Source: Candolleomyces eurysporus
Taxonomy: Eukaryota > Basidiomycota > Agaricomycetes > Agaricales > Psathyrellaceae
DNA length: 64,000 bases
Assembly (NCBI GenBank): GCA_027579435.1
Contig: JANBPK010000864.1
Location: 51,436-115,435 of the forward strand
Direction of reading: 5' to 3'
The notes under the pieces were generated by a model, which saw only the letters and a program-made list of their open reading frames with translations, searched no databases and was not told the DNA's origin. The position numbers and the translations under genes were made by a program. Positions 17,102 to 46,635 of this stretch are shown in pieces (the first letter of the stretch is position 1; each line of letters starts with the position of its first letter).

Positions 17102-20100
17102 ATGGCAAGCGTTTATGCCCAAGTACAGGTTCTCAAGAGAGGTATGCAATCTTTATAGCGTGAGTGATAGCATCGCTAACAACTTATATGACGTATCGTC
17201 TTGTTTTTCTTCTTTTCTGCACCATTCCTCCTTCACCTCCTTGTCCCTCGACCTTTTGCTTAGATGGGTATGTCGTTCACNTTTTTCGCTTGATAGTTGT
17301 GGCTTACCGCTTCTGTAAGGCGTGTTGAAGCATTCAGTTTGGATAAGGCAAGTCTGCCTCTTTATGCATATAATTATGAATGCACTGATCCTGGCTTTAG
17401 CTCTACAACAGAATTGTAAACATACGTCCCTTGACGGTTTATCCAGCTGCTCCAAGTAACTTTTGTGCCCAGTCTACAAAACTCACTAGGCCCAATCGCC
17501 GAGTCAAAGACCTGGCATTCGCATAAGTTATTAGCGTCTATTCGTTCTGTTTGCAAGGGTTCCCATTTGAGGCCCCCTGACTAACAGCATCATAAAACTT
17601 GACTGCAATATACAGGCTAGCTGATCTTGTCTCCAAGCACTTACAACCTGAAGCCCAGAGTCAGGACATTGATGTAAGTGTATTTCGCTCGTATCAATCA
17701 TCTACAACGTCTCACCATGTACATCGAGCAGATCGTTACTAGCGATTTGGCTGCTCAGCAAGTGTCAACGGATTTGATGTATGGTTCCATAGCCTCCACC
17801 ATCACTCGCGAGTCCCTCTATCGCATCACCCCATCTAGGTTCTCGGCTGCTATGTTCAAGGCAGAAGATCTCCTTTCTGAGGACTTTGTCAATACGGTGG
17901 AACGAAATAGAGACGCCTTGGACGCCATGATCAATGAAAGCCAAGACGACATGTTCAATTAGTGAGTGCACACTGTTCCTCAGTATGCGACTTTACGAGC
18001 TTCCGGTTTAAAAAAATGCTTCATTTGGGCTGTCTCGTTGCATCATTCTCTTCTTCTCGACTCTTTTATTTATTTTTTATTTTCTTTTATCTTTTGATTT
18101 GTGTAACTGACCTATTGCATTTATAGCACGGCACTGAAAGCTCTGCAGAGGAGCTATCTTCTGACCAACGGTGCTTCAGTGTTAGAACGACCTCAACATA
18201 TGTTTCTGCGAGCAGCCCTCAACATCCATGGCTCTGATATTGAAGCCGTTAAAGAGTGCTACGACAAACTCTCCATGCTACAATTCATGTTCACATCCCC
18301 TACCTTGTACAACGGAGGTACCAGAGCTGCCCAGCTCAGCTCGTGTTTCCTCCTCCCGGCTGAGGAAGCGCTCGACGACTTTATTGGAAATACCCTCCCG
18401 AAGATCATCAAGATAACCCGCAGCAGTGGTGGGATGGGTCTAGGTCTGCATCATATACTGGCAAAGGGGCATGTTGTTATGGCTGTTGACGTTCTTTCTT
18501 TGACTCAATTTCTTGTGTCAGGTCCAAGGTGCAGGGTGTTGAATGCAGCGGATTGGTTCCAGTGCTTAATATGCTCGATGCTGCCATAGGATTGATACAT
18601 GGCAATGATGCTGATGCGCCGTCTGCGCGAACACCCTATAAAATTCGCGAACTTACTTTTAATGTTCGTGAACTGACTTGTGCATACAGAAGATCTTCGT
18701 GAAGTGGGAAACTATAGAGTTGGAGCTTTCCCTGGTTGCCAACTAAGCAGACTACCTAGCAGAGACGAGAAAGACAAGTAAGACGGTTCTACAATGGTAC
18801 TTTAAGTTCGTGAAGGCCTTGTGAACGTATCTGAAACAGCTACAACTAGAATCGAAGCTACCTGATATGCCTGACCTGGCGAGGGACAATATCAGTGGGA
18901 GTTATGTGTACTACAAGGGAATTCGCCCTGACATTGCTAAGTGGAAGTCTTCGTGAAGTAGCCGATGGCTTCGAGAACATGATCGTCAATCTGTCAAGTC
19001 AATAAGCGCTGACCTTACCATCTTTGGAAGGTATTGGCGTTAGTTGATGAGCTTCGGAGGATCGTCCGAAGTTTGTGAACCTGCTCGGAAAACCGGAAAG
19101 TACGACTAAAACTTATGTGGTCATCTACCCGAAGCTCAGTCAGCCTGGCCATAGCCAAAAGAAAGAAAGAGTCAGCAGAGTAGTGAAGCAGTATGGCTTG
19201 GTGGAGCCAAGCACCCAAAATTTGGATCAATTCGTCGGATTAGGTGCGCGAACAGAAGGGCGCGCTCTCCAGAAGCAATCCTCAGTGAATATCCATGCGG
19301 ACTCGACAACAGCCGCATCCAGATCAGGTTCACGAAGTGCCTGGGCTGCATTCTAAAGTTCGAGACTCAACTCTCGGCCTTCAATACCCTCATGTGATTG
19401 CGTTTCTTATCTCTCTCCGTCTCTGTCATTTGTTTGTTTCTCTGTCTATTTGCCAAACAATAATTACATATATATACGTTTCTGTTTTATCTATTATAGC
19501 ATTAGTGGGTAGCTAGCGTTTGTATTTCGCGTCGGGACCGTGTTCCCAGGAATCTACGAGAGCCATCTGTTATCGAGAAAGAGTGTTTAAGTTTGCGAAG
19601 TCAATCAGAGTTGTGTCGCTTGCGTATTATCGAATTGTTCTTGCGTTAAAGTTGCTCGAGACCATGTTCTCTATTCGCGAAGTTATCCGTTGTATCTCGA
19701 ACCCTACTGTGTGTTAGCAAAGTCACTTCGTGAAGCATTTATATTGTTGCTGGTTGAGCCTTAGCTCCCCCTCAAACTTGCGATTGTACAAGAAGAGTTC
19801 TAGAAGCCTCTGTCGACTTGACTTAGAGCTTTTACCTATACCCCTTGCCCACCTTTATCTTCACAAAGGTATTTGGTGTGTTGTGTTATTGTGGTTGTGT
19901 GTGTGTGTTTTAGTTCTATAGTTTGGTTGTTAGAGCACCCTAGTTCACTACCTGCACATCAACGCTGAGAATTGAGGTGCAGTGGCAGTCTATCTGGAGC
20001 CGTGGCATGCTGAAGTGTTTGAATTTGTTCAAATGAAGACAGCTAGTGGTTCGGAATACCACAAAGCTCATCGGCTTTTCTATGCACTTTGGATGAACGA

Positions 20101-21671
20101 TCTCTTGTGAGTCTGCCCTTATTATCTCAGTAACGCGTATGTTCACTTTATTTATGTGTCCCCAGCATGAGGCGTGTGGAAGACAACGGGGATTGGACCC
20201 TTTTTTGCCCCTCGGACGTGCCTCAGCTGGTTATGCTGCATGGCGCTTCATTTCAACCGCTTATGAACTCTTCGAGCAAAAGGGAGAGGGTAAGAAGACA
20301 GTACACGCACAAGCCAAATTGAAAGCGGAGTGTCAATTCTCTTCAAGGATGCAATAAATTGTAAGTGTTCTACTCGAGTTCATCTGTTGCGTTTGTATCC
20401 ACTCGTCCCTGCCACATTACAGGTTCCAGTAACGACCGTCATAGAGGTACAATTACCCATTCCAACCTCTACACGGAGATCGTACAGTACTCTTCCCGAG
20501 AGGAAACCGCTGTCTGCACCTCGGCATCTGTTGTACTACCGGCATTTGTGAAGATCGATTGAACCTTCGATTATCAAGCTCTCGAATTGGTCGTCCGCCA
20601 TGTGGTATTCTCACTGAATCGCGTCCTCCATAGGACACGCTACCCCGTATACTCTTCCGACCGATCCGCTTCTTTGAACAGGGCCATCGGAATAGGCATA
20701 CAAGGGCTGGCCGATGCTTTTGCTTTGATGGCCGTGCCATTTGACAGCGAGGCAGCATTCAAGATGAACCGCCGAGTAGCAGAGACCATATACTATTCCG
20801 CACTCGATGAAAGCTGCAACTTGACAAAGACTTTCGGCATTTATCCTGCCTTCAAGCATAGTCCATCTGACGAGCAGTATGATTACTGGAACACACTTCT
20901 GGAAGAGGGGCGTTATGACTGGGCTGCGCTGAGACGGAAGGTTTCCATGGGCATATGCAACTCCAATGTTACCGCCTATACGCCTACGGTTGGCACTTCT
21001 CAGTTCACTCAGTGCATGGAGTCGTTCAAACCATTCCCTAGGTGCATCATTTTCCTTCCTCTCGGTTTGTTTATAATGATTCAGACCTGCTTATACAGCC
21101 TAATTTATACATACAAATTTCCGTCAGGTCAGTCCACGATGATCAACAAGTATTTAGTCAGATACCTCAGTGATGTTGGGAAGTGGAGTGAAGTGATGAG
21201 AGATCAAATAATTGCGAACAAAGGTCTGTGATCCAGTTCTGATTAGATCTCTAGGAGATAGTAACTAACCCTCTTTTCAAAGGTTCCATCCAGGACATAG
21301 ACGGTCTGTCCGATGATCTAAAGGCCATCTTCAAGACATTGTGGGAGATGAAACCTGATGTGATGGTCCGAATGGCGTCCGACAGGGCCCCCTTTGTGTG
21401 CCAGAGCCAGAGTTTATCTCTCCACTTTGCCGAGCCTACATTGACTGCAGTGGTGAGTTTTGGTTTATTGTAATTTTTTCATCCATATGTCCTCCTGATC
21501 TTTTGCTTATCACGGCCTATCTTACAGAGCCATGCAGTCTTCCAGGCATGGAGATCCGGACTTAAAACAGGTCTATATTGCTTGAGGACTAAAAAGGCTT
21601 CGAACCCGCCTTCAGCTACTTTACATATCGGGTTCAGGGTGAAGACTGAATCCATTAAAGAAGAGGTATAA
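17102..21671 (+). pseudogene. Ribonucleotide reductase large subunit, decayed copy
   Basis: Class I ribonucleotide reductase R1 normally makes dNDPs from NDPs in the cytosol with an R2 partner. Recognisable pieces in order: VLKRDG of the ATP cone (17102-17141 spliced to about 17278), the segment leading to LQRSYLL and ERPQHMFLR (18128-18240), SPTLYNGG and AQLSSCFLL with the first redox cysteine (18295-18350), YLEPWH and LFYALWMN (19995-20100), IGIGIQGLADAF (20690), and the SQSLSLH/GLKTGLYCLRT C-terminal region (21410-21590). Disablements: the conserved NLCTEI box reads NLYTEI, so the thiyl-radical cysteine is tyrosine; there are in-frame TGA codons near 19977 and 20560; much of the ATP cone is missing; and a 1.35-kb repeat splits the gene. 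One intron (from about 18470) would need a GC donor. It is a redundant copy; a working R1 gene must exist elsewhere. Confidence 0.9.
18612..19961. mobile_element. 1.35-kb TG...CA repeat, copy A
   Basis: It starts TGATGCGC and ends GCACATCA; copy B ends GCGCATCA, the exact inverse of this start. It lies inside the ribonucleotide reductase copy: joining ...GGCAATGATGCT to GAGAATTGAGG restores the spacing expected between the LNML and YLEPWH regions. ATGC (18608-18611) and ACGC (19962-19965) may be a mutated 4-bp target duplication. There is no coding frame. TTCGCGAA, TTCGTGAA or TTCACGAA occurs eight times (for example 18644, 18665, 18696, 18807, 18950, 19329, 19674, 19727). The TG...CA ends suggest a large solo LTR, but a DNA-type non-autonomous element is also possible. 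Confidence 0.75.
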
Positions 21672-22042
21672 TGCACTGCCTGATAGCGTGAAGGGATCGA
21701 GAACAAATGATCGGGTATATGCAGACTCGGCCTTGGCGTGTTGTCTGGATTATGGACGTGCTGAACAAATCGAGCTTCCAAATAATGTGTAGCTTGTTAA
21801 CTAGTTTTCTTGATATCACATATTTTGTCTTGCCCTCATGTTCTTGATGAGAAGTGTGCCCAGACCAATGGAACTGCATGTTGTCTTGTTAGTTGATTTC
21901 TCAATGCTCCATAGAGTTTTGTCTTCAAAACCTTTTGACTCCTCTGCGATCGTTTTGTTGATTCATAGCCGAAAGTATCTTCTCCGTTTGGAATATGATA
22001 TTCCCATTCCTCATCGCCATTAACCAAGATCTATTGGTGTTA

Positions 22043-22457
22043 CTAGTATAAGCGCATGAGCTGTAATCCTCCCTGGAACCCGTAATTTGATAGAAAATGC
22101 TTTACCAAACGATAATCAGAAGGTGTTACATCTGAAATCGTAGTGTATAGATCGTCTCTGCATCTTGCAACCACTAATGATCCTCTCCAAGGAACGCGTG
22201 TGTCTCTTTGGTCAACAGCCTTGGCGGTGGCTTCTTCATAGTTCGTCTTCGGTGTACCATCTTTCAGTATTCTTGTTGAAGTGGAAAGGTAGGTTGTCTT
22301 CAGAAACCATAGGGTAGAAAATAGCAAATGGCCCGGTGGGTTCTTTAAGTACGCCATCGTCGTGTTGGAAGATTTGGTTTGAGGTTACCTCAAAACACGT
22401 AATTGAACTGATTGTCAACGTGAGCAAGAATTCCACATGTGTCCTCGAAGAGATCAA
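22043..22457 (-). CDS. Partial hypothetical protein with PWRG motif
   Basis: Minus-strand frames give NLPFHFNKNTERWYTEDEL and, in a second piece, RVPWRGSLVVARCRDDLYTT followed by DYRLVKHFLSNYG. This pattern (PW.G.hhV.R followed by an Asp-Leu helix) resembles small proteins common in agaric genomes, including the gene at 33.26-33.92 kb (MWIGNVAVAKY). The start lies upstream, perhaps beyond the ambiguous base at 22491, and joins are uncertain. Confidence 0.35.
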
Positions 22458-24557: not shown

Positions 24558-24916
24558 TGTTGAGACATACCGTATACTATAGGATCGACTAATGAGTGAT
24601 GCTTGAGGGATGTACTACTGACTTTGCTTATAGAAAGTGCTTCGAGCTTTATTCGTACTAAACTACATGGTTTATATACTACTCAAATATGTGACTGTAA
24701 CGTCACATAAAATCACCTAGTGGTCTGTGCACATTAGATGACTGAGCATTGCATGCTGAAGGTGCAATAATGACACCATTATGACGCTTTGCTCTAGAAG
24801 CTGAACCTAGAATACAACTAGACCTACTATATACTGAATATACTGCGTAATACTATTTATAGCGGTTTATGTAATAAGCGCCATGGAACAGGCATCTATT
24901 TCACATAAGTTCAACA
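24558..24916 (-). repeat. Probable solo LTR, minus orientation
   Basis: The ends are TGTTGA and TCAACA. Read on the minus strand it holds TATATAAA (24670-24678) followed about 25 nt later by AATAAA (24648-24653), the U3-R arrangement of an LTR, and ends GTCTCAACA. No internal element is attached on either side. Flanking 5-mers (TATGT and CGATG) do not match, so the insertion is old or one end is wrong. Confidence 0.5.
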
Positions 24917-26008
24917 CGATGGTGGTGTCAATCTGTTGTCAATAGGGTTCTCAGTACACATTTGTCACTCCGCATCACCAGTGAGATCAGTTCAATAAAT
25001 AAGTGGTGGCATACACGGATTATGGATGAGACTGACGGCCTCTCTAGGGTCTATAAAACGAAACGAAATAGTATACGACAGACGAAAAGGAAAAGATAGA
25101 TGGGACAAATCAACTCACTTTAGACGAAGTTTTACAAATGCTGGGGCATGCCCTGTGTAGCGCCACGTTAGACCTTCAGAGGGTTTTGAGACAGACAAAG
25201 AGTACCTAGCTGTGGATATAGTATGGCCTTCACGTCCTTTTCCTTCATCTGCGCATACATTCTGGTGTCACAGCGATGATTATATGGCAGTACAGAAGCA
25301 GACTGAGGACCGAATAGGAATCAAGGTCCTTGCGCTTTATATTGCCTGTCGTCCTCTTGCACCCCAAATCCGTCTTTGCGTCTGTGTTGGGCTTGGTACG
25401 GGCTGAGAGAGGTGGGCGAAATCTAGATTTTGCTATAACGTACCGGGGGCTTGGACACGCTTACCTGCTTACCTTTTTTGTTCTCTAGAACTGTATTGAG
25501 ATCCTTATTGGCCAATGAAGATGCCTTGATGAATGGTGCACAGCATCCTTCCTGTTAGATGGACACTTTGGAAGCATGTACGGTGAATTTTTGAGAACGC
25601 GAAGGTGAATTTATGGGGCACTGTATGCCAATCGCAAGTTTTCACCTGCAGAATACCTGATCCGGATCATACAGTCTTCAACATACCTTGGCGATCGGCG
25701 GAGAACTCGAGCCAATGCGGAAGGGAATAGGATGCACAAAGGATCCTCTCCAAATATCGAGGATAAAGGCTTCCACACGCTCGAGGATGATAGGTTTACA
25801 TTACACATTATGTCTGCCTTTTGCCTTGAGATATTCATGCACTGTATGTGCATAAAAGGTCTCATTTTTTGGCGAAATGTCAATCGAATACGGTCTGGTG
25901 TCCGTTACGCAATCTGATTTACTGACTGTTGCATGAATTATGAGGTCTTAACGATATTTCCTATTCAGTTTGGGAGTAAATATTACATATTAGGTCAATC
26001 CGGGTATC
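24917..26008. other. No recognisable gene
   Basis: This stretch should contain the 3' terminus of the Helitron, but I could not find a convincing hairpin plus CTRR end on the minus strand. Confidence 0.3.
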
Positions 26009-29000
26009 CTACAAAGCTGAACCGTCGCTCTCTTTGGTGACTTCTGATGTAGATAAGACTAGCCCTTGCTTAGCAGGGAATGCATCTGTTGGACATTGTA
26101 TGGCATAGCCTGCCTTTGTCCTTTGCTCAAGAAAGTCCAACCTATCAAGTTCTTCCCTCAGTTTGCCAGACATTCTCTCGACTACCCGTTTGGAAGGAAA
26201 ATGGCGCAAGATCAGGAGGCCTTTCAGTGATTTGACTCTTGAGAGCATGATATAGGCTCCTTGTCCTTTGGCTGTAGCCAGATCCACTATAACGTTATCC
26301 AAAGTTCTTCCTTGGCTCTTGTAATCTGTGTAAGAGTATGCGGGAGCCAAGGGTATCTGAAAACAACAGTAACTTTTTGAAATGACGTCACCTATGTGGA
26401 TCAGCTGCTTCACAGACACAGGTCTGGAAAATATGGGAACTATGCCTTTCCCAAGCCCAGGAACTTCGACGAGGCTTGATCGTATCTCGACGTATACAAC
26501 ATCCGCTTTCCTCCTCCCACTCTGGTCTTCAGAGTATACGATCTCTGGACGATCCCTTCTGAGCCGTTGACCACTTTGTACGGGATAGATATGTTGTCCA
26601 ACACCATCACTCTCATCCCGATAAAGAGAGGAAGCTTCCCTAGGTGTTCCCTAGTCATCCGAGCTGGCATGTTATGTAGTCGATCCGCCATAGTGCCCGT
26701 AATAGGGTGTCCCTTCACTTTATCGGTCGAATAATAAATGTGAACCCTTTTGTTCAAGCCAGAAGCGTGGGCTGTCAACAACCGGACATTTAGTGCATCC
26801 CTCAGGGTCTTGCTCCCAACTATCACTGGCGCATTTGAGAACATGGTAAGTGACTCTCTGTCATTAGTGTACACGTTTGAAAGCAGTCTGCTGGACAAAT
26901 GCTGAAGCACCGTCTTACCCAAGATGACCGTGTGTATGCCATCCACACCGATGCACTTGTTGTTTCTGATACAGGTAAGAACCTTGGCATAAGTAGGATC
27001 CTCGGGTTGTCTGACATTTTTTTTTCAGGTGTACGACAGTCTCTACGCGTCGCCAAAGGTATGCGCCGGCTATGGCGTCGATGCCACAGGTGTTGCTTGT
27101 GTCTATGAAAGCTGGGTTTCATACAAGCCGGTAAGAGAATAAACTAGGTTGCTTGGGAGGTGGCAGTTGGCAAAAATCCCCCATAAAGATGATGCTAATT
27201 CTGCCAAAGATCTTTGACCCGCTGCGATGTATGTCTCCTTTTGCCATAGAGAGTCTAGAAGACATAGTTGCCATGAACTGAGCTCTGACCATGGAGATTT
27301 CGTCGACAATCAAGTATCGTGCCATCCTCCACTCGTTGGTCAATGCTTCCGACAGTTTTCCCTTGTGAGACGGCCCTAAGCATAGTAGAGAATGAAGTGT
27401 GCTACCACCTATCAGAGCAGCTGCAATGCCTGTAGGTGCACCCAGTCGCAGCTCTTCCAAATGCCCTAGCTCGGCAAACAGCTTGACTACGGTCTTGATG
27501 ATATGGGATTTGCCTGTTCCTCCTTTGCCGCCAACGTACATCAGTAATTGGTCATTACCTTCAAGGACATGATGCGCAATAATGCGAAAGGCTCTCGACT
27601 GAGCCTTGTTCCTCGCCAATCCTTTGGAGTGTGTTAGACGCTCTATCAAGTCGTATCTGTGTACGGAAGAACTGGTTCATAGTCCGCTTAAAGTCTCAAT
27701 GGTAACGGTTGGCTTCATGGAATTGCCTGGTCGTGACAACCTTTCGTTTTGGATGTCTTTTTTTTTNCTTTTTCCCTCTAGTTGCTGAGCCCCTGTTGAA
27801 CCTTGTTCCTGCCATGAAATCTTGGTGATTTTGTACGGTCTGAGGAATAACGTCGCCTCTGTTTTCCACCTCATCCTCTCCATTCATGGCTGGACCAGAT
27901 TCGTCTTTCCCAATCTGGCACTCATCAAACATTGACGAGACATCTCTGCCCAGGAATACTTCCAGCTGGAATGGCTGTATGACACTCTGTGGTTTGCAAG
28001 AACCAGGTGGCAAATTTGGCTCGTGCAGAACGGAGTATACGTTTCCTTCCTCCTCCCTCACAGACAGGTCTAGCGGTCCTTCTTCCTGCATACTTGACGC
28101 CATTCGAGCGAACTCCTCATCCGTCCATAAAGTACGAACTCTGGACTTTCTTCTAGGGCGCTTATCCCGGGCTGCTTTAGCCTCCGACAAGAGGGACATG
28201 TTGATCATTGTACGGCGTTCCACTTTGGTGAAATGTGGGTATGCTTCCTGCAAAGAGCCGTACCAGGATGCTGATTGCTCTCTCAGATTGATTGGCATCC
28301 TCCACGGTTTGAACAGTATGCACATTTCTTTTGACCACGCCTCTGTTTCGCCTTCAGTCCCCTTTCTCCTTGAGATTTTTGGACCCAAAAGGACTGGTAC
28401 AACACTGCGGGTTCTAGACTGCACCCCATGGGTACGAAACTGTGGGTGATGCTCTGTTGAGAACTTGGATATGGTAGCACTGATTTGCGGATATCCATCA
28501 CTCCCTAGTGGGAGGGGTAATCTCAAAACGCTTGACCAGAATGTATATAAGCTCATCGACTTGTAAGGGCTGAACGCTGGTCTAAATATGTAGTCAAGCA
28601 GATGGTTTGATGCGACTATGGTCCCTTTTTCCATGGTGATAGTCATCTTCATTTCCTTGGTCTTCTCTTCTTTCACTCTGCAAGAATGGTCACCATTGTG
28701 CTCCTCCCAACTCTGATTGACATATTGCAGTGTTTCAGACCAGTTGACTGGATGAAACTGATCGCTGGTGTAAGATTCTCCGCAACCCAGGATGAAACTC
28801 ATTACTTGTGGGTGTGAAAGTTCTTGATGACCCAGCATACTGTTAATGGCTACTGTAATCGCTCTGTGTGCAGCTTCTCCTTGGTCGCCCTGGAGTGTCA
28901 CATCAAAGAGTCCTTTCGATTGGCACACACGGATAGCATATGCTAACGCCGTCAGTCCCGCATGCATCGAAAGTGGCGCTTTCGTGATGTAGTCTGTCAC

Positions 29001-31740
29001 GTAGTACATGAAAGCCTTGGCGTCTTCTCCTGAGCCTATGAATTTCAAGTCCGTGTTACATTTCATCAAGAAAGTCAGTGTCGGGTTAAAGTGAGTCATT
29101 CTGGGATGGGCTCGTTTAATCCTTATCTCTGCTGAGACAGGATCTATCTCTGTGGCGTCATTGATGGTCCCATCTAGCCCGAACCTGCAGTTCTTTTCTG
29201 ACCTGGCTTCCCCTGGCCTGAGATACTTCCAACATGTGCTGGTGTGCTTATGGATCTGGAATTTCAACAGAAGTTCGTCTATATGTTCCAGCATGTTATC
29301 TCTGAAAGTTTGAGGGTCAGCCTTGGCCGCTTGAGGGCCAATATGAGCTCCTGGGTGCAAAGCCTGGTTGCTCGGGTCGAGATCGCCATACAGCAAAAGA
29401 TCTGCATGATTCAGGTGGGACTTGGTGCCTAGAAATCCAGAGGTCATGACAGAGTCGATCCATTGTCTGAGTTTCTTTCTATATGTGTCCGACTGTATCA
29501 ATCTGTCAGCCAGGACCTCAGGAGGTAGATGGCCTTTCAGCCAGATGAGCATATGGCAGTGCAGGCTGCCTCTTCCCTGAGTCTCAACCATTCTGTAATA
29601 TGCTTCACAGTGCCTGAATAGGCCAGGTCTCTTCTCCTTCCTTCCATGACGCAGGATGATTTTGATGAATGCTTTGATCATCAAATCAAAAAACTGGGCG
29701 CAGGCAGCCGGGTGACCAAGGGAAATTTGCATCCAATCAGAGGCGCTAAGATCGGGTAGCTCTCTAAGCTCTGTCTCGTTGGCACATCTATACGCCAACA
29801 CGCAAACGATCGGATGATGGTGATCTGCAGGGTTCAATGTTACAAATAACGTAGGAGATCCTCGTTGGCATATGAGAGATCTGATCTCATTTCTCATATG
29901 TATTCGTTGCGAGGTGCTCCCAGGGACCTGCTTCGCTACTGGCATTATTGAAGACATGATACGAAGTATATCCTTCTCCTGCCTAGTCCGAGGCTGATAA
30001 AACGGGTCACCCAAAAATCGCATCCTCATAGTCGCAAGAACCTCACGGTCCAAATGGACTATGTCATCCACCACTCGTGTGTATGATGATATGGGAACAC
30101 AAAATCGCAGGCTCAAATTTACCATGGATTTCCGAAGTATATTGTAAACATCGAAAGCTATGGCGTAGTCCTTCTCAAAGAATGGATCTCGAACAGCGAG
30201 AAGATGTTTCAGCTGCTGCCCCATGCTAATCCGATGTTTCCTTCGCGGATTGTTGAAACCCCCTAGGCCATAAGGATCTGCCTCTGGATGGGCCCAGCTC
30301 AGCCAGTTAGGGTTATCGATATCTGGTACAGGCGTGGACCCACTTCTGCTGCAAATGAACAGTTGTCCCTCCCTACATCTTTGAAGCGCAGTCATTGTCA
30401 TTTCCCAATAGCTCTGTGCAGTCATGTCGCCAGTGGTATAAGCAACACTTTCCATGAATAGGCCTTCCAGTTTGTCTAATCGGTCGGTGTAATCAATCAT
30501 TGGGGCTTCGAGCGCCTCTTAGATTGGAAGATGTCCAATACGAAAGGACTGGGGTACCCCTTTGTCATCTGGCCCCAAGAATAAAGCTTCCAAATACTCC
30601 GAGCTGTAGCCTTTGAAAGCCTCCGAAACGCAATAATGTGGATTGTTTTGTATCAAGAATTCTATCAGCAATTTGACACGGCTTTTACGAACCAAAATCG
30701 GACGCAATTGTTTGATGATAGCTTTGTTGGGCATTTGTTTCGAAACAAAAAGGGCACAAACCGTGTCTCGAATTTCTGAGGGAGATGGTGGAAGCATCGC
30801 ATTCATCCGGCCTACGTCAAAGGGCGTGGAGATGATGTTCCCTCTTATGTGTCTTTTGTCAAACCTGACATTGTCTTCTGCGTTATGTTCTTTGTAGAAG
30901 CCGAATCAACATAGAAGACTGTTCGTCCTGACTCGGCAGATCATTGCCTTTTCAAAAATGCTCATGTTCTTGAAGGCTACTGAGACGTCTTTGGGAACCC
31001 TTTCCCGGGCATAGTAGAGCCAGTTACATAGTGCAAACTTTGGCATCTTGCCTCGAGTCAGATCGCCACGACATTCCTGACAAAAGAGCATTATACCTTT
31101 CGCAAATGGCTCCTCTAGCCCCTTAGGTTCAAGAATAGCTCGGTCATATTGTTGAAAATTGTATGAGTCTGGAAGGAGGTGCGAAGGTAAATCGTCGTTT
31201 CGCAGCAAAGACAGATCCACATCCTTTGCATGGGCCTTGTGTAGATCCTTTTCGTATCGAAGGCCACTGCATGCAGCACATGGTAGACGAATGAAGTTTT
31301 CTAGTGCCATTTCCCGCTGCCATTCCCTTACGATGGTAAGAACCCTTGACGAGGGGATAGTATCTAAGTGCAACATATCCAAAATCTTTGTCGTACCAAG
31401 ATCTAGCTGATTCGCGCGGTGGAAGAGCGTTATGGAGAGCGCGCGGCTGTGAATGTCGTTCCGATAGCCCCTCTGGAACTGCTCCAGTGGTACCTTTCCG
31501 ATTCTCCATGCCTTGAGTACGGGTTCTCGTTGGAGTGGAGTCCCATCTTTCAACTGACACATGGTCAACCCAAGGACACACAGGCCTGTATTGCGATCGT
31601 TGCTTGAAGACATAGAAGAGGTCTTCACAGCTTCGATGACATCGGTGCTCTTGCAATTGGCGTACTATTTCCCCTTTTACGGGCTTTCGGACTAGTTTGA
31701 CTTTGTGTCCTTGAGCAATGATCCTCAGGAACGGGATCGT
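26009..31740 (-). pseudogene. Helitron Rep-helicase, disrupted
   Basis: Minus-strand frames collinear over 5.7 kb encode the rolling-circle transposase of a Helitron. In order: a SAP-like start (LRIIAQGHKVKL, near 31710); a cysteine-containing region with FCQECRGDLTRGKMPKFAL (31030-31090); a Helitron-like N domain; the HUH motif in GSLHCHMLIWL (about 29550); the tyrosine pair in MYYVTDYITK (28981-29010), expected to make the DNA cut; then a PIF1-type helicase with GGKGGTGKS (about 27510-27535) and LIVDEISM. The helicase ends after DYKSQGRTLDNVIVDLA at a stop at 26009. Breaks: TGA at 27119-27121; a run of nine T (27017-27025) where the helicase frame needs eight; and an ambiguous base at 27766. 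The second could be an assembly error; the first suggests real decay. Neither terminus was found. Confidence 0.85.
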
Positions 31741-31800
31741 GAAATAATGATAGCCTCTGATCGCTCGGTATGCATAACAAGTGCTTTGGCCCTCTGCGTT

Positions 31801-37984: not shown

Positions 37985-40900
37985 TTAATGGCGGCGAGAG
38001 GTGCTTTTACAAGAATAATGAGTGTATTGTGAGCCATGAAACCCATCGGAGTCAGAACTGTTACCTTGCACAGAGCGAGAGCGGGAAGCACGATGGGTGC
38101 CCATATACACAATTGATGGGGATCTTGACCTCCTATGCCTTTTTCTACCCTGTCGATAATCGCGGCGAAGATCCCTATGGTGGCCTTCATGCTGATAATC
38201 GTACCAGCCATGATTATACCCTTGAGAATGATCAGCATGATCATTTTGCTGATTTTCATCTCTCCGGTCCATATTTCGATAACGGGAGTCTTGAAGACAA
38301 TCACCACAGAGGTGCTCCAGGTCATGTTTACAGGAATAGTCATGAGACCAAGATCGGCAACGGAAGGGTGAACGACCACGTGCAGGGGAGGAACCACGTG
38401 GGCGCAAGGGTTCACGAGAAGGGCGGCGAAGGTGCGAATAAGGGTGGCCATGAGATGAAATACGGCCATGCAAGTGCGACTGTTCACGAGATGGGGAGCG
38501 ACTGCATAAATGAGAACGTTCGTGAGATGTGGAATGACTGCGTAAATGAGAACGGCCACGAGATGTGGAACGACTGCGTCGAGAACGTTTGCGGGATGTG
38601 GAACGACTGCGTAAATGAGAATGTCCCTGAGTTGGGGAGCAACTGCGTAAGTGAGAGCGTTCACGGGATGAGGAATAGTGAGGATTGTTGGGGTGGTGAA
38701 TGAATGGTGGAATAGATTTGCAGGATTCAGAACGGTCTTCAATCTTCTTCTTTGCGGCGGTATTCTTGAGACGGCCTAATGCCTGGTCCAATCGCATGAT
38801 TGTATCGCTGGCAGCAGCAACTAGGTTAGAAGAGGATGGCCTTGAACCTCCAGGTATAATGGCGTTTCCAAGAACTTCACGGGCATGAGACCTGAACTGG
38901 GCTTTCTCCAATGGTTTCTTGAAAGCAGAATCATCAATCTGGGCTACAGTGGTGTCGACAAGCTTCTTCAGTCCTGCCACAGACGTTCCGACAGTTTGAG
39001 TGACAAGTCCGTTAGCATCTTTGACAATGGGTATTTCAAGATATCTTGGGTTGCCCTTTGGAATTGCACGCTCTTCTATATGAGAGGTCAGTTGCTGGCC
39101 AATTTTATTTCAACAATTTTACACGTTACCTTCGGTCCAGTGCTCCAAGCCCAATTCGGTGATCTCTGTTCCATCATGGAGAGCCTGGCCTAGACTTGTA
39201 ACCCAGCCCCGAGGCCAGGTGTTTGTATCCCAGGTGGAATCGCCTGGTTGACCACTAAATTCAGATGGAAATATAATTCGAAGCTGCTGTTCAATCAAAA
39301 GTGGGACAGTGTGCTGTCCCCAGAAGCGAGTTATATTCGTTTTCTGCAGCAATTTCTCTGCAATAAAATACTAGAAGTCAGTCTTCTATCAAGGCTCCAG
39401 AGTCAACACCACTTACAAAGGAGCCGTACAAAGAATTGGCGAACCAAGGTACGAGCCTGGTCAGGCGACACCTTGCCATTCTTGCCCTTCACCTTCGAGT
39501 CTATCCCTTCAGGTTCGCACTTTGGGACACATTCAAACGACCGATGGGCACCAGCAGTTCTAGAGTCAGGCTGGGGAGCAACGAGATTGGCTGGTGAGGG
39601 GCACTCCGCTGGCGCAGTTGAAGTACTCCCTTCTTGGACAGGCTGCACAGGATCCCTTCGAGCAGGTAGCTCGCCAGCGATAAAGCACTCAGCAACCTCT
39701 TTCATTGTTATGTTCTGTGGCTTGACAAGCCCGCTCCCAATAGCACTGTCCAAACAATTGAGTCAGCAAAGAACATGAACACATGCTTGCAAACTTACAA
39801 GAGAAAATTTGCAAAATTATCGATGAAATCAGCTAACTCCACTTCATGGGCAGTGATGAAACTTGTCAGCGCCGCATCGGCTGTGGTGATTGTTGATGCT
39901 TGACGAGCAATTGGATTGCGACTGGTGATGACAGACACAACTTGAACGTCGCCATTTGTATACTTAGATACTTCTTCACTCTTCAAAGATGTTAGATAAA
40001 CGGAAGAAATGTTTGCCAAATGACACACGAACCAGACGACAAACATGCTTAGACATCTTCCGCATATAACCAGCCAATGCTTTCCCTTTCACTGTGGCAT
40101 CGCTATCACCGACAGCTGCGCTGAATGAATACTTCTTCTCATACGCCTGCTTCCAGACTGGGGCCATATATTTCTTCTCTTCTTTGTCCATTGCACAGTA
40201 AATTGCCAATGCATTTTGATTGAATTCAGCACAGCCCACAGCTGCAGTGAATCAGCCATGGAATCAAAATGAAGGTCAAAACGACAGGCTTACAGTCAGG
40301 TCGCTCATTCAATTGCGAATAGTGACATAGGAAATGGTTGTAGCGGTTGCCAGCACGAGAAAAGTGTATCCCAGTCTCACTTGGTTTGAGAGGCCTGTTG
40401 TGTGACAATCCAGAGCCAGCAAGGGCAACAGAATCTGGTAGGGAAAGCACTGGATGAGGCAAGGGTGATGCCGCATTGCTGTCATGGTGGCTGGGAGGTG
40501 GCTGGAGAGGCGGTTGGGGAGGCGATCTGGGAGCACACCCTTTTCCCTTTTGTGCAGCGGATAGGCGTGGTGGTGAAGTAGGGTTGGGTTTACGAACATC
40601 CCGGTGCTTCTTGCTCTGAGGTAACAACGGCCGTGGGGTTGGTGGATTATCTGAGTGTTCTGAACAAGCACGTCTACTGGTAGAGGTGTCTGGCTCCTGA
40701 CAAAGTGTTCGCCTTTTGCGTTTTCCAGCTTGAGCAGTTTGGTCATCATTGTAATCGTCATCCTCACTATCACTGGAACCATTGAAACTCGAGCCCGAAT
40801 TGGTACTGACACCATCCACATGATCACCAACAGAGGCTCTGTCATCTTCGTCCAGGTCGCTTGGGGGATCAGGGGTTGGAACATCCGGAATGGCATGCTT

Positions 40901-42625
40901 CTTGCGGAGGGTTCGGAGCTCGAGGCGAGCGGCATCCCAAGCACATTCCACTTCTTCGGGGGAACTGGCACCAACGATAGCAGGACAGAAGTAGGTGGGT
41001 GGTATTTGATACCATTGGCGGTCCTTTGGAAGTCGAAATGACGTGAACTTCTTGTAGCCTGTAGGGACAAAGTTTGGGGGCCGAGGGATGACAGGGCCTA
41101 GAACGGATGCACACCAACCGTCACCGCTTGGGACACTCCGGCCAATTTGCACCGGAACATCAACATTAGGAGGTGGAAGTAAGGGCGGAAGTCGATAAGA
41201 GTACATATGAACCCTACGTGGGATACGATAGGCAGTTGTGGTCGAAGCTTTTTTGGCAGCTGACCGGTTGGAGTGGTCACTGCAAGAGGGTGCTGCAAAA
41301 CGGCCAGACTTTCGGGGCACAAGCGATCCTGATCGTGCATTCGAGGACATAGTTGGACCCAATGGGGAGCTAGGGGTGGCCCTCTGTTGCGCACTGTGAA
41401 AACTGTCAGTGTACAGCTCTATGATGAATACCAGACAGACGCACGGGGTAGTTCTGTGCAAACCAGACTTGATCTTGAATTGCTCGTCCACAAAAGATCG
41501 CGGATTGGGCATGAAAACCTGGGAACTGAGGGAAGTCAGCATAGATAGATGCCTCCGACAACACGTAGCTCACAACATGGCTTGAATATCTCCAGACTTT
41601 TGACTCGCAGTGGCTGCAGAGGATGCCTGCACTCGAGCTCTGAGAGGGTCATTCTGAAGGTCACGACTAGTAAGGGTTTGGGCATGGCGAGTGCCAAGGT
41701 GCATCTCTGCTGGTGCCACGGTGTGAGAGAAAACTGATGAAATCCTAAGAAGAATTAGGAAGCTTCACCAAAAGTGTGCGATCGTAATACCCACCCGGCG
41801 GTAGCAGTAGTGAAGACCAAGGGCTTTGTCTTGTAGGCGGTCGCTGCTTTAAGGGCGCTGAAAGGGAATGGTTACTTGTTGTTTTGAACAGCTAAAGGTC
41901 ATGTGCTACCTTGACAGCTGGCTGGGTTCAACAGTGACTGTGGGAGACTGCGAAAAAAAGTGAGCAAGTGATCAGTGGGGTTGTAGTGGATGTACACACC
42001 GTGTCGACATCCATGGGTACACCTTTGTCGGTTGGAGAGGCACTCCTGGGGCGGCAGAGAACTGAACGAACAGAGGGGACTTCTACACTATACAAGGCAT
42101 CAGTTTGTGCCATACTCGAGTTGAAATATATAGAACCACAAAGAAGACCATGCTGTCGACAACAATAAGTCTAACCGACGCGTGAGCACAGGCTCGATGA
42201 CAGTAAGTCAAATCGAGGAGGGACCAGTGACATTTAGTCAAACTGGATGGCAGAGAAGAAAGAGGAAGTAGAGTAAGCATCACAAGAGACACGTACAACA
42301 ACATCTTCAAAGACCCAGTGGCAATACCAGACCCCTGCTTGTCGAGCGAGGTATTGTTGCTCTTCTCTTTGTTCGTATGGGCCCTAGGGGAATTTTAGAG
42401 CCAGGAGCAACGAGAGAAAAGGAGTAGCATGCGGCACTTACTTCTTATTGCCTGTCTTCCTGGGTTTCTGTAGCATGACACGTCAGATAGAGGTGAAGAG
42501 GTGTAGAACGAGGGACGGACCCGGGCAATTTGCCTTGGTTCTTGAAGAGGCCCAACGGCAGAAGGTGCTTGGTCCCTCTGACGCTTGCTCTTTCTGGTAC
42601 CTTGAGATTTGGATGAAGTGGGCAT
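37985..42625 (-). CDS. Large hypothetical protein with Arg/Ser-rich tail
   Basis: Coding pieces chain from about 42625 to a stop at 37985. Well supported are the segments ending GVPMDVDT (about 42010), TVTVEPSQLSS, ALKAATAYKTKPLVFTTATAG, the exon ending ATASQKSGDIQAML (about 41570), PTGYKKFTSFRLPKDRQWYQ (about 41030), an acidic Ser/Asp region, EEKKYMAPVWKQAYEKKYSF (about 40150), GDSTWDTNTWPRGWVTSLGQ (about 39200) and NPRYLEIPIVKDANG (about 39030). The C-terminal 200 residues are Arg/Ser/His repeats. I recognise no domain. The RS-like tail suggests a nuclear, RNA- or chromatin-associated protein, but that is inference. The first exons and the join near 39400 are unresolved; the simplest join there creates a stop, so the copy may be damaged. 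Confidence 0.5.
38488..38673. repeat. 36-bp minisatellite in the RS-rich coding region
   Basis: Five imperfect units of 36 bp (one shortened to 33), each with ATGTGGAAYGACTGCGTAAA or a close variant, then a partial sixth. The period is a multiple of three, so on the minus strand it gives a 12-residue Arg/Ser/His repeat (for example RSHLRS, SRSTS). Confidence 0.7.
42198..42242 (+). repeat. Spaced 15-bp motifs, left pair
   Basis: TGACAGTAAGTCAAA at 42198-42212 and TGACATTTAGTCAAA at 42228-42242, start to start 30 bp. The same two motifs recur inverted at 44.40-44.48 kb. Confidence 0.6.
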
Positions 42626-44577
42626 TATTCGAGTGTATGAAACAAGTCAGGAAGGACAGAACAGGTGGAGTAAGGTATTTAACGGGTGGCGGACTCAGGG
42701 TCGCGATCAGACAAAGCCGGGGGCGCGCGATGGCAGAGGCAAACTTCATTCTATCCAACTCCGCAAATATAGCCCACCAGGCTTGGCGGTGAGCAAAGTG
42801 AGATGCGTATCTATTTTTATGCCCACTATCAATTTGAAGCTGGTTAAAAACCCCATCCGAGCTGCAAAAGGAGGTAGAACGTACCTTGAGAATGAGAACA
42901 AGAGTGGCTGCAACAGGCAGGCATTCTTGAGCAGGGCGCCGTGTCTCGCTTGAATCAGCAATTGTTGAGAGGGTGTCTATGAGTATCGTCAATCAAGATT
43001 CGACTCATGAGTGAGAATCCAGTAAGGTAACTAAAAAAATAATGACCCTCTCACTACAGATCGACAACTACGGCTACTCACCTTGAACAGCGACAACAGA
43101 ATGTGTTTACTATCAAGAACCACAGACTATAGACGAAAGAATATTTCCTTCATTGCTCTCTGTGAAGTCTTTCAAGCTCTCGCAATGATCCAGAATGGTA
43201 ACGTGAGGTTATGAATGGTCAGCTATCTATTGATATGAGATTGACTACATTGGTGAAAATAACCAATGAACACTCACACAAAGTTTGCACATAGCTGTCA
43301 GCGAAGGTCCTTCAAACTTGCACAACATGATCCCAAAGCAGTAACGCAAAATTACGAATGGTAAGCTATCCAGCCTGTTGTTATGAGATAGGATACAAGG
43401 CAAAAACAGTTACTGAGCACTCACAAAGTATCTGTCAATGTCCCAGACACCCAATGAGACACTTCTAGGTTCATGAAAGGTTAACAATATCATAGATTCC
43501 CTAGCGAACAAACCCACCTCAAAATCATGGTCCAGACTGATTGAGATGCATTGACGCACACTCACAAAGGTGTGAACATGGGCAAGAAATTCCTGGCGAT
43601 CGATGTAAGTGTGTATTCGTGAGATATACTACAATTTTACCCCACTATGCGCGTGGAGATATGACAAGACTCAGCTCACCTTGGAGGCTTGGTTATAGCT
43701 TCATCCTGGGCGCAAACTGCGACGGCCGATGGGCGGCAATTGTCTGATAGAAGAAAGTGAGTATTCGAGAAACATAGGGAATAATAGAGGAAAGGTGCAA
43801 GCTCAAAGATGTGAGTTCGAACGAATTTGAACCGTTCGCAAATTTTTACAACGATGGAAGACGCCATTGTTGTTAACAGGCGACAGTCAGTCAAGCCATA
43901 TCAACAAGGGGAGGTTGACAGTAAGTCGAAACCTACAATACGATGCCTGTGGCGACAATTAGTTGAACCTCAGGCGTCGTTCCGCATTGAAGAGGGGTAG
44001 GGGAGAATAGAGAGTAAGGTGATCAGAGTTAGATCACTTACGATAACAATTCTTTCTCTCAAAAAAANTGCTACCGGCGCTTCTTCTACGCAAACAGCAC
44101 CGCGTCCTTCCCCGATCTTCACTATACTAGATTGCTTGTCGTCGTCGTGGCTGTCGTTGTGTCGTTGTGTCGTTGTGTGGTGTGTCTTTCGGAAGTGAGA
44201 GATTGCATCAGTCCTGGGCCGGATTGCTTAGCTAACCTGCTCGTGACTGCACGAACACGATCAACGGGCCTCTCAGCCTTTCTTGATGTCATCCCAACAC
44301 CTTGTCGACGTGTTTGCTATCGCCCGTTGCCTGTCTGCTCGCATAGTAAGTCCTCATAGCTCTTCCTTTATTTGTGGTTGCATCGGATAAGAGGGGTTTT
44401 GACTTACTGTCACCCCGGATTCCACTGGATTTGACTAAATGTCATCCTACCTTTCCATCACGAGGTCTTGACTTACTGTCGCTCGTATTCTTTGTGGTAT
44501 TGTTGAAAAGGCTCATGAATTAACTGCTGCTCGTTAACAGCTATTTCTCTTGCCTTCACAAAGCCATTGCTTTCAAT
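42626..44577. other. Intergenic; three-motif cluster at 43881-43967
   Basis: No gene recognised. CGACAGTCAGTCAAG (43881), TGACAGTAAGTCGAA (43917) and CGACAATTAGTTGAA (43953) are spaced exactly 36 bp apart. Ambiguous base at 44068 after a run of A. A short GTCGTTGTGTCGTTGTGT repeat lies near 44155-44175. Confidence 0.4.
44398..44482 (-). repeat. Spaced 15-bp motifs, inverted triplet
   Basis: On the plus strand TTTGACTTACTGTCA (44398), TTTGACTAAATGTCA (44430) and TTGACTTACTGTCG (44468) are reverse complements of the motifs at 42.2 and 43.9 kb, spaced 32 and about 38 bp. Confidence 0.6.
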
Positions 44578-45226
44578 ATGGCAGCAAAACCCGTTCTCGA
44601 GCCAAATGAATCATCCGGCGAGCGTAAGTCCGAGCTATCTTGGGTTGTCGTCAATGCTAACTAGGTCATAGCATCTCTTTATGGAGCGGCTGATGCTCTA
44701 TCCTACTATGTTTTAGACCATCAGCTTCCTCCATGCAAATTCCTCTTTGAAGGCACTCGACTCGCCCCGAATACGCCAGCTCGCCCACCTTTTGGCTCGT
44801 CACCAGTCCCAACATGAATTTTATTCCTGAAGTCCCAGCCGGCATGCGGCGCGCCCATGGCCGTAAAGATGGTTGATTTGGGCTGGACAACCAAACCCTG
44901 CACCCTCAGTTCATGTATCCAGGCTTTGACTACATAGCCTGCATTCCGCGACGATCCGAAAGACTCGAAGCGCTTTGGTGGACTGCGACAACTGACAACG
45001 CCCCAGCTGTAGAAGGGAACACAATTGTGTACGAGATTCGGGTTCTCACACCGCACCGCGTCGAGATGCTACGGGAAACCGAGGAGGAGTGTAGGAAACG
45101 GGCTTTTCGGGTGCTCGACAAAAATCCCTCTGCAACGTTGCTCAGCTTGTTAGTCGTACATGCGGAACAATGCCTCCAGCGTCTCAAAACCTACGGAATT
45201 GACTTCAAGGGCATCCTTGAGACCGT
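44578..45226 (+). pseudogene. 5' part of a hypothetical gene, truncated by copy B
   Basis: It starts MAAKPVLEPNESSG, then an intron (GTAAGT...ATAG), then SLYGAADALSYYVLDHQLPP. After a region with a stop (near 44817) the frame resumes as FMYPGFDYIACIPRRSERLE and ends at ILETV, where copy B begins. The YPGFDYIACIPRR...LWW pattern resembles uncharacterised agaric proteins. An intron (GTAAAG...CAG, about 44863-44909) joins the last part, but the upstream stop suggests decay before or after truncation. Confidence 0.5.
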
Positions 45227-46635
45227 TGATGCGGCGCATGCCTGTATACCCTTAGAAAAATCGCGAATTAATAGAACTTTTCTTTGGAAGTGCTTCTGAA
45301 TTAAAGGACTAAGTAATGATGACAACTTATAGAACTCAGCATGTCTTCTGAACATTGCGAAACCAAGAGTCGAAGTGGTTCCCGGCTTCAGACTTAGCAG
45401 CTCTCAAGGATCTGGCTCAGAACCTAAGTACGACGGTTCAGCAGTGGTGCTTTAAAATAGGAAGGCCCTGCGAACGTATCCAAAGGGTAGCAAACAGATT
45501 CGGAACCACAACTGCGCGCCCGACCTGGCGAGGTACGGCATAGGAAGAGAGTCTGCACACTACAAGGGACATTCGCCCTGACATTCGCTAAGTGGAAGGT
45601 GTAACGTCACTCTGTGGCTTCGAGGACGTGATGGCAAATCCATTAAAGTCAATTAAACATGACAGTTACTGGATTCGGAAGTACGAAGCAGCTCAGTTGA
45701 GAACTTCTGAAGAGCCGACTCAAGGTGTGAACTGATGTGGAGTGGAGACCGGACCCTCGGCTGTCTTCAGAACCCGAGATAGGTTTCGGTCTTGCAAACT
45801 GGCGTGGATAACAAGGAAAGCATGGAGTGTGGAAGAATGCGGAAGGCCTAGAGCCGGGGCGATGACGTGATAAGGGCTTGGGAGTGGTGCCCAGCGAACC
45901 GGATAGACGGAAGTAGGATTGGGAGCAAAGGTACTCACCTCTGAACCTATTCCGAACTATCTAAAGCATGTGGAAGTAGTGGAGTGCCGTTTCGGCAGTG
46001 GTTCCGAATGCGCCTCGATGCAAGTCTAGGGAGGTCGAGACCTAGTTCTGGAGCCTGGATACCCTCATATGATTATTTCTTTCCGGACTGGTTAATTTCA
46101 TGTGTTTTTATCTCTGTTTGTTTTGAATGTGTTTGCCAAACTTATTTACAGTATTTAATCTTGGACTCTAAGTACTGAATCTACATAGCGGGTAGCTAGC
46201 GTTGTATTTTGCGTCCGGGTCCGTGTTACCCACCGAATCTACGAGAGCCTTTCTGTTATCTTTTGCGTGTTTAAGTTCAGAAGTCGTTCGGAGGCCGTGT
46301 CCTCATCGCGTTGTCAAAAGTTATATCGTGTCGAGACCGTGTTCTCACTTCTGAAGTCGAATCCGTGTATTGTCGAAGTCTGTTGTCTACGAAGTTTAGC
46401 TTCCGAAGCAATAACATCGAACCTGGTTGAGCCTTAGCTCCCCCCTCGAACTTGCGATTGCAAAGTTTACGTTCCGAAGCCCAAGTCCAGCTTGACTTAG
46501 AGCTTTTCACTATACCCTTGCCCGCCCTTTATCTTCTGAAGATACTTGGTGTGTTTGTTTTGTGTGTGTGTTGGTGTGAGAGTTTGGATCTTCGTCTTGT
46601 TGTGTTTTGAGCCTTAGAACGCGACCTGCGCATCA
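45227..46635. mobile_element. 1.41-kb TG...CA repeat, copy B
   Basis: Homologous to 18612-19961 over its length: both begin TGATGCG, share GGTAGCTAGCGTT, GGTTGAGCCTTAGCTCCCCC and TTGACTTAGAGCTTTT in the same order, and end in CTGC-R-CATCA. It has no coding frame. TTCNGAA occurs 13 times (45294, 45346, 45499, 45674, 45705, 45766, 45950, 46002, 46276, 46349, 46401, 46472, 46534), where copy A has 8-bp TTCNNGAA forms. No target duplication is seen, and the two flanks belong to different genes on opposite strands. Confidence 0.75.

Follow-up and report, generated by a model that had tools for sequence, protein, structure and literature searches.

The two window repeats and their dyad arrays

The 64,000-nucleotide stretch of Candolleomyces eurysporus DNA analyzed here (contig JANBPK010000864.1; hereafter the window) contains two related repeats on the forward strand, A (18612 to 19961; 1,350 bp) and B (45227 to 46635; 1,409 bp), each carrying an array of short palindromes (dyads) of its own type. 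We describe these arrays, the retrotransposon families to which the repeats belong, and a candidate protein that may bind the arrays. Both repeats begin with TG and end with CA and are most likely solo long terminal repeats (LTRs); A is so assigned because no polypurine tract (PPT) lies upstream and no primer-binding site (PBS) lies downstream of it. The 4-bp flanks of A, ATGC (18608 to 18611) and ACGC (19962 to 19965), are presumed target-site duplicates, of which the left one has decayed. The left flank of B is CCGT (45223 to 45226), and the right flank, GCGG (46636 to 46639), is unlike it. An earlier sequence-only reading of this DNA described an element bounded by TGATGCG...CGCATCA. These termini proved to be LTR ends, and a DNA transposon or miniature inverted-repeat transposable element with TGATGCG inverted ends was dismissed for this reason. 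The same reading let A and B align end to end, which was too generous: BLASTN reached only the last ~400 to 560 bp at 70 to 74% identity, shorter pieces reached up to 81% when each repeat was compared with copies of the other type, and the first ~800 bp were aligned by MAFFT alone.

Copies of both repeats were collected from the genome (65.85 Mb, 1,296 contigs). A first look gave 438 candidates for A and 412 for B, and 40 of each were scored. The LTR set comprised 64 full-length copies from 78 loci (34 nearer A and 30 nearer B), after removal of overlapping or exactly duplicated copies and of any that lacked more than 5 bp from either end. A PBS-like TCTATTGGAGCCCA, which reads as a tRNA primer-binding site, was found 3' of 9 of the 64 copies, and a purine tract ending in GGGAGA (strict pattern) was found 5' of 7; three copies had both. 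The locus L070 has a variant PPT that the strict pattern missed. In the 51 copies with neither signal, the 4-bp flanks favored NCGN on both sides and were identical in 10, compared with 2.1 expected (maximum of 7 in 1,000 shuffles); most pairs differed, and the NCGN preference accounts for part of the likeness. The nonidentical pairs were perhaps altered by CpG decay or by recombination between copies. Given the TG/CA termini, the PPT and PBS of some copies, and the NCGN flanks of the rest, the A and B families are LTRs, mostly solo. At three loci (L015, L048, and L065), an LTR was inserted into an LTR of its own kind at one shared spot, between CCGT and GTT(C/A)CCC, a pattern suggestive of repeated self-targeting to NCGN sites. 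The LTRs of L006/L043, L017, L038, and L070 have a PPT upstream (the variant in L070) and a PBS downstream, corresponding to a tandem LTR-internal-LTR-internal arrangement.

The dyads of A have the form TTC-N2-GAA (N2), and those of B have the form TTC-N1-GAA (N1). Repeat A contains 10 N2 and no N1 dyads: TTCGCGAA at 18644 to 18651 and 19674 to 19681; TTCGTGAA at 18665 to 18672, 18696 to 18703, 18807 to 18814, 18950 to 18957, and 19727 to 19734; TTCACGAA at 19329 to 19336; TTCGAGAA at 18970 to 18977; and TTCTAGAA at 19798 to 19805. The last two come in addition to the eight CpG-type 8-bp forms, without any TTCNGAA, that had been counted in A before. A decayed N2 dyad, TTTGCGAA, lies at 19592 to 19599. 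Repeat B contains 13 N1 and no N2 dyads, in agreement with the earlier count: TTCTGAA at 45294 to 45300, 45346 to 45352, 45705 to 45711, 46349 to 46355, and 46534 to 46540; TTCGGAA at 45499 to 45505 and 45674 to 45680; TTCAGAA at 45766 to 45772 and 46276 to 46282; and TTCCGAA at 45950 to 45956, 46002 to 46008, 46401 to 46407, and 46472 to 46478. The excess over shuffled sequence, a check that the sequence-only reading itself had named, holds; its chance expectation of ~0.3 copies was too low, as dinucleotide shuffles gave means of 0.55 for N2 in A (maximum of 5 in 2,000) and 0.64 for N1 in B (maximum of 4 in 2,000). Outside A and B, the window (~61 kb) contains 17 N1 and 28 N2 dyads.

The same division was found throughout the two LTR families. 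The 34 A-type LTRs contained a mean of 8.59 N2 (range, 4 to 14) and 0.35 N1 (0 to 1) dyads, and the 30 B-type LTRs contained a mean of 11.97 N1 (6 to 15) and 0.17 N2 (0 to 1) dyads. Free mixing of the 7- and 8-bp forms at the same sites was not seen across these copies; the exceptions were 12 of 34 A copies with TTCGGAA or TTCAGAA near A 19052 and 5 of 30 B copies with TTCTGGAA near B 46046. The proposed replacement of N2 by N1 at five aligned places was borne out by a column alignment of the 64 copies. At A 19329 (aligned with B 46002), N2 was present in 18 of 34 A copies and N1 in 24 of 30 B copies, and the corresponding numbers were 16 and 29 at A 19592 (B 46276), 20 and 29 at A 19674 (B 46349), 18 and 24 at A 19727 (B 46401), and 20 and 23 at A 19860 (B 46534). 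An additional column, A 19798 (B 46472), showed N2 in all 34 A copies and N1 in 25 of 30 B copies, and the column of A 18696 also has N1 in B copies. Several aligned places have matching flanks with one base fewer in B, as in AAGTTCGCGAAGTC of A versus AAGTTCAGAAGTCG of B. Because other sites are present in one family only, LTR sites have also been gained and lost. Transitions occurred at a rate of 0.14 to 0.17 at CpG versus 0.03 to 0.04 at other C/G positions and were thus four to six times commoner at CpG in both LTR families (34 A and 30 B copies), as expected if methylated CpG is lost, which the sequence-only reading had suggested. This excess, together with four exon places in the genome that match the DNA_methylase profile, indicates that the element copies are probably methylated.

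Parent retrotransposons and the extent of the arrays

The earlier reading had recommended looking for a full-length parent. The repeats belong to two related families of a Ty3/Gypsy-order retrotransposon. The internal regions following an A-type LTR (L070) and a B-type LTR (L079) encode Gag, protease, and reverse transcriptase-RNase H-integrase in Gypsy order. Pfam matches in L070 included RT_RNaseH_2 (E = 1.7e-14) and Integrase_H2C2 (E = 1.2e-14), in order; weaker matches to RVT_1 (0.014), zf-CCHC (zinc knuckle), and protease were below the cut-offs. Among the matches listed in a pol search of the genome, an A group (90 to 100% identity), a B group (78 to 87%), and a third group, C (57 to 60%), were distinguished, in addition to partial matches. 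The spacing of B-type pol and LTR matches gives a full element of ~14 to 15 kb. Extra PPT-like copies (TTGGGGGGAGA and TTTGGGGGA types) were observed 3' of the integrase in L070 (~9920) and L080 (1542 and 2287).

The arrays are not confined to the LTRs. The A internal region (8,450 bp, one copy) contains 33 N2 versus 4 N1 dyads, and the B internal region (8,410 bp, one copy) contains 35 N1 versus 4 N2. Post-pol stretches of second copies showed the same preference (A, 30 N2 versus 2 N1; B, 24 N1 versus 3 N2), as did ten 1.5-kb internal flanks at seven LTR loci (A, 26 N2 versus 2 N1; B, 23 N1 versus 6 N2), of which the flanks of L002 and L017 overlap the post-pol stretches L081 and L082. Four host flanks of LTR loci contained no N1 and no N2 dyads. 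When 704 dyads (64 half-sites with gaps of 0 to 10) were ranked without bias, TTC-N2-GAA came first in A and TTC-N1-GAA came first in B. When nonoverlapping pieces were pooled, with overlapping homologous stretches omitted and each A or B part counted once, 66 A sites were found in ~13.7 kb and 63 B sites in ~13.4 kb, that is, one per ~210 bp. As a negative control, a Copia element in the window (2591 to 8290) contained no N1 and three N2 dyads, and no TTC dyad was among its top eight. This Copia-type LTR retrotransposon (2591 to 8286) has an open 1,446-amino-acid frame and near-identical end repeats of 300 and 91 bp (98 to 99%).

The arrays extend through coding sequence. The gag-protease-pol region contained 26 N2 dyads in A versus a mean of 5.0 (maximum of 12) in synonymous-codon shuffles that preserve the protein and codon use, and 22 N1 dyads in B versus 5.2 (maximum of 12); neither count was reached in 1,000 shuffles. 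Single B coding pieces were weaker, with the observed count reached in 53 of 1,000 shuffles for the N-terminal part of pol and in 18 of 1,000 for the protease. In the codon alignment of pol and gag, only one pair among 21 A sites and 19 B sites lay within 4 nucleotides, and the same peptide is encoded by several A sites and by siteless B sequence. Because the sites sit at different places, the A and B arrays were built separately inside the same genes. The flanks of the motifs are unrelated except for a C or G beside the core. Among six stretches tested for tandem repeats, only L082 had any, which were short (1276 to 1337), and none underlay dyad sites; a tandem-repeat origin of the array was dismissed on this result.

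The dyads are also phased. For 129 nonoverlapping sites, 67 distances of 9 to 130 bp showed a period peak at 10.30 bp with a mean cosine of 0.56, compared with 0.14 (standard deviation, 0.06) for jittered sites, and the observed phasing was reached in none of 5,000 jittered sets. In a separate calculation, the mean cosine was 0.58 at 10.3 bp versus 0.00 at 11 bp. The LTRs alone gave 0.86 (none of 5,000 sets); the A and B LTR sites share ancestry, which leaves the phasing counts partly dependent on each other. A 10.30-bp period matches the B-DNA repeat and points to proteins that sit next to each other along a single face of double-stranded DNA.

The third family has a dyad of its own. In the post-pol stretch of group C (L080), the dyad scan revealed no TTC array; TGAAGCGGCGT recurs instead. 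The refined dyad, TSA-N-GC-S-GC-N-TSA, had 41 sites in L080 (at least 9 of 11 positions) versus 4.2 in shuffles (maximum of 12), and a group C LTR from another locus had 17 sites versus 0.7 (maximum of 4); the motif was discovered in L080 and its degeneracy fixed after the group C LTR had been viewed, so neither count is blind. A and B contain 8 and 6 such sites, and the group C LTR pieces contain no N2 site. Genome-wide, TGAAGCGGCGTSA was found 34 times versus 6 for the reversed pattern, with many matches in group C contigs (e.g., C17, C1006, C1099, and C1206). The family-C pattern with the outer T replaced, which serves as a control only, gave 37 matches versus 41 for its own control pattern. 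A stretch beside the pol fragment of another group (L022/L063, one locus represented twice) had 7 family-C motifs in 1.5 kb versus 0.56 per kb in the window, and L024, a group C relative, had 4 in 1.5 kb. CTTCGCGAAG was found at 184 places in the genome versus 108 for the reversed pattern; the matches listed include contigs C22, C31, C33, C151, and C156, which carry A-type pols.

Antisense genes downstream of pol

The ~4.4 kb between pol and the 3' LTR contains genes on the opposite strand, which appear from their frames and GT-AG ends to contain introns. Gene 1 encodes six cysteines, spaced C-x4-C-x6-C-x9-C-x2-C-x6-C in A and B and C-x2-C-x6-C-x10-C-x2-C-x6-C in group C, and the six align across the three groups. 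The only named relative of the antisense protein is a hypothetical protein of Candolleomyces efflorescens (P0122), for which AlphaFold predicts a long helix after the cysteines (residues 203 to 251; predicted local distance difference test [pLDDT] score of >90 over most of it). Searches of PDB sequences gave no match in one case and seven matches at E = 0.66 or worse in the other. No homologue of the family-C cysteine exon was found among 10 candidates, and no DNA relative outside this genome was found among 5 pattern matches in viral contigs and 43 in genome contigs.

Gene 1 is linked to pol in a constant arrangement. Cysteine exons or the helix of gene 1 were found at 56 places (26 A/B-type, merged from 43 matches, and 30 C-type). 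Among the pol matches listed, 26 of the 56 places had a pol within 8 kb upstream (16 A/B-type and 10 C-type), and all 26 lay on the opposite strand, 3.1 to 5.0 kb past pol, with none on the same strand; the remaining 10 A/B-type and 20 C-type places had no listed pol nearby. This comparison used 42 of 50 listed pol matches; the 8 omitted are on C562, C867, C874, and C1184, which contain none of the 56 places. The A and B versions of gene 1 were 48% identical in the cysteine exon, 37% in the helix part, and 25% in an early exon, compared with 80 to 91% for pol, 79% for the protease, 55% for gag, and 32 to 61% for the second antisense gene. Gene 1 evolves fast relative to pol. The A-type pol contigs C22, C1002, and C1089 differ strongly from C156, C33, and C1203 in their antisense cysteine genes, and an exchange of the post-pol module among A-type copies is possible. 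The second antisense gene (L081, 3277 to 4561; L082, 3510 to 4846) belongs to no Pfam family, with a weak match to PF23005 below the cut-off.

Fungal zinc-cluster proteins read two triplets at a set spacing as dimers. Because of this mode of reading, a zinc-cluster dimer fits a TTC/GAA dyad with a 1- or 2-bp gap, and the cysteine spacing of group C matches such a protein. The sequence-only reading had proposed looking for a DNA-binding protein of the parent element. Antisense gene 1 is a candidate for it; its presumed zinc domain was confirmed by neither Pfam nor structure prediction.

In other parts of the window, a 934-amino-acid frame on the reverse strand (27696 to 30500) has a Helitron helicase-like N-terminal domain (PF14214; E = 1.6e-27). 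An imperfect repeat with 36-bp spacing is located at 38440 to 38684, with five copies of a 68-nucleotide reference at spacings of 36, 36, 69, and 36, all multiples of 3.

Interpretation and comparison with known systems

The family-specific, symmetric, and phased dyads, which are in excess in coding and noncoding DNA and were switched as a set, argue for a dimeric DNA-binding protein tied to each family. A DNA-binding factor with a joint, family-wide change of specificity, as first proposed from the window alone, would still be the best reading of the motif data. Since families in one nucleus differ and each has a linked, fast-evolving cysteine-cluster gene, the binder is probably encoded by the element. 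With moderate confidence, we propose that families A, B, and C are each tiled with operators for their own antisense-encoded dimeric DNA-binding protein, which may act in anti-silencing in the manner of VANC, the protein of Arabidopsis VANDAL elements. A and B would be sister families, each tiled, genes included, with a palindromic operator (TTC-N2-GAA in A and TTC-N1-GAA in B), and family C would use TSA-N-GC-S-GC-N-TSA. A symmetric, presumably dimeric protein would bind the dyads as double-stranded DNA, cooperatively along one face of the helix; it is most likely the product of the antisense post-pol gene with its six cysteines in zinc-cluster-like spacing and the long helix after them. Such a protein may recognize only the array of its own family and so mark the family's copies in chromatin. 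When its half-site spacing changed in a lineage, the array of the whole element would have followed: some LTR sites would have changed in length by 1 bp, and substitutions would have placed sites at new positions in the genes. Least certain is what binding does: marking most likely activates the copies or lifts their silencing, as VANC does for VANDAL, and self-repression or compaction of cDNA would be alternatives.

Several observations weigh against this proposal. The zinc-cluster region had low pLDDT in both AlphaFold models, in which the following helix (203 to 251 of P0122) alone was confident. Pfam gave no match to the cysteine cluster of A/B gene 1, the PF00172 match of group C gene 1 was below threshold (E = 0.058; 13.9 bits versus a cut-off of 21), the genome's 21 Zn_clus matches all lay outside the antisense genes, and the C-x2-C of the canonical zinc cluster is replaced by C-x4-C in A and B. 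Fast evolution is shared by gag and the second antisense gene. In the cysteine-exon part, gene 1 beside A-type pols (92 to 99% identity) was either 31 to 41% or 47 to 48% identical to the B-type query; because gene 1 varies so strongly among copies with similar A-type pol, the argument of one protein for one motif is weakened. The phasing was weaker in gag-pol (0.44; reached by 171 of 5,000 jittered sets) and post-pol (0.44; 90 of 5,000), and when both were pooled it was reached by 3 of 5,000. Several internal 3' flanks were weak (L017, 2 N2 and 1 N1; L004, 1 and 1; L002, 3 N1 and 2 N2), and the comparison comprises one genome with few internal copies.

Among other explanations, host transcription or silencing factors, such as heat-shock factor paralogues with different gap preferences, might bind the arrays, so that the element gains expression or the host silences it. 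This would require no element gene, and TTC-N2-GAA is the 2-nucleotide-gapped heat-shock core. According to the available part of a report on Phytophthora infestans (PMC11267843), single heat-shock factors of that organism bind either TTCNGAA or TTCTAGAA; it is an oomycete, whereas the present genome is fungal. An oomycete host was dismissed in view of the C. efflorescens relative of the antisense protein, 21 places matching Zn_clus, a fungal family, and the four DNA_methylase exon places. Sister families in the same nucleus have different gaps with little mixing, and the arrays lie in coding sequence rather than in a promoter. The sequence-only reading had also noted the heat-shock core; a heat-shock factor as general binder was dismissed, as B has a 1-bp gap and the dyad of C is unrelated to heat-shock elements. 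We therefore regard host factors as unlikely binders.

Somewhat less likely still, another element protein (Gag, integrase, or the second antisense product) may bind the dyads, for example for cDNA compaction or for joining integration complexes. The sites do run along the whole element, pol included, and A and B have diverged rapidly in Gag and the second antisense gene. However, dimeric reading of a spaced dyad would not be expected of a zinc knuckle or an integrase, and the C-terminal regions of pol and integrase are 80 to 91% identical between A and B despite the changed site, a point that does not affect the second antisense gene.

Signals at the RNA level, acting in packaging or dimerization of genomic RNA, are very improbable. 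Retroviral RNAs dimerize through palindromes, and transcription is expected over most of the sites. The A-form RNA repeat is ~11 bp, at which the mean cosine was zero, and the 10.3-bp spacing is that of the B-DNA helix; an RNA-level signal was dismissed on this phasing. In addition, TTC-N1-GAA with any central base is a DNA dyad, and that base would be mismatched in RNA. A by-product of composition, codon use, tandem duplication, or CpG decay is hardly credible, for although the A-type sites are CpG-rich and decay by transitions, shuffles preserving dinucleotides or codons and protein fell short of the counts, tandem repeats were restricted to L082 among the six stretches tested, motif flanks were unrelated beyond one base, and the Copia element in the same window lacks a TTC dyad array.

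For few systems, VANC among them, is it known how transposable elements distinguish their own copies from other genomic DNA. Operators read by an antisense-encoded protein may be a general means of self-labeling in fungal Gypsy retrotransposons, by which families overwrite their own entire sequence, coding parts included, with a helically phased operator and a DNA barcode that can be switched throughout the element decides identity, defense against silencing, and competition between families; we offer this generalization tentatively and rate it at somewhat below an even chance. With three related families, three motifs, and a linked gene candidate for each in one genome, specificity, switching, and the cost of a regulatory code within coding sequence are open to direct test. 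If the proposal is correct, these families would provide a set of DNA-binding proteins perhaps differing in half-site spacing, and such proteins could be found by motif statistics alone.

Gal4-type Zn2Cys6 proteins have the pattern CX2CX6CX5-12CX2CX6-8C and a helix after a linker, and their dimers read two triplets at a spacing set by the protein. The gene 1 product resembles them in its six cysteines and the following helix, and the group C spacing fits the pattern. It differs in the C-x4-C of A and B, in a PF00172 score not above the cut-off, and in a presumed TTC/GAA triplet instead of CGG. Family A shares the TTC-N2-GAA core with the heat-shock element, which has alternating nGAAn units with a 2-nucleotide gap and from which the arrays differ in their single dyads, the 1-nucleotide gap of B, the unrelated dyad of C, and sites over coding DNA.

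VANDALs are DNA transposons, whereas the carrier here is an LTR retrotransposon whose dyads are palindromic, phased, and present in gag-pol as well, not tandem repeats. In the available parts of two reports, VANC anti-silencing proteins are described together with motif arrays in Arabidopsis VANDAL elements, the motifs being noncoding and often tandem repeats, not spaced dyads (PMC5735166, PMC10398659). As there, a short motif has accumulated in the cognate elements and differs between related families, and the candidate protein is encoded by the element, with coevolution of protein and motif proposed for VANC and presumed here. Retand-lineage Gypsy elements of plants have antisense open reading frames in a long region between pol and the 3' LTR, with a predicted DNA-binding product and a suggested regulatory role (PMC11963269), as in the present elements. 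The Retand protein carries a TRP28 domain (PF04195), and in about half of the Retand elements this region holds tandem repeat arrays; the available part of that report makes no mention of a dyad array spanning the element (PMC11963269). PF04195 was not found in the antisense open reading frame pieces scanned here. In the open-access literature available in part to us, which excludes subscription journals and Repbase, no whole-element dyad array or antisense zinc-cluster gene was found in a fungal Gypsy element. We classify the elements as Ty3/Gypsy-order LTR retrotransposons, not as a VANC system, and do not count the protein as a Gal4 member. As far as the available parts of these reports go, both comparison systems lack a phased dyad array running along gag-pol; their proteins are unlike the present one in the features tested. 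The nearest concept is that of VANC and VANDAL, while the nearest anatomy is that of the Retand lineage.

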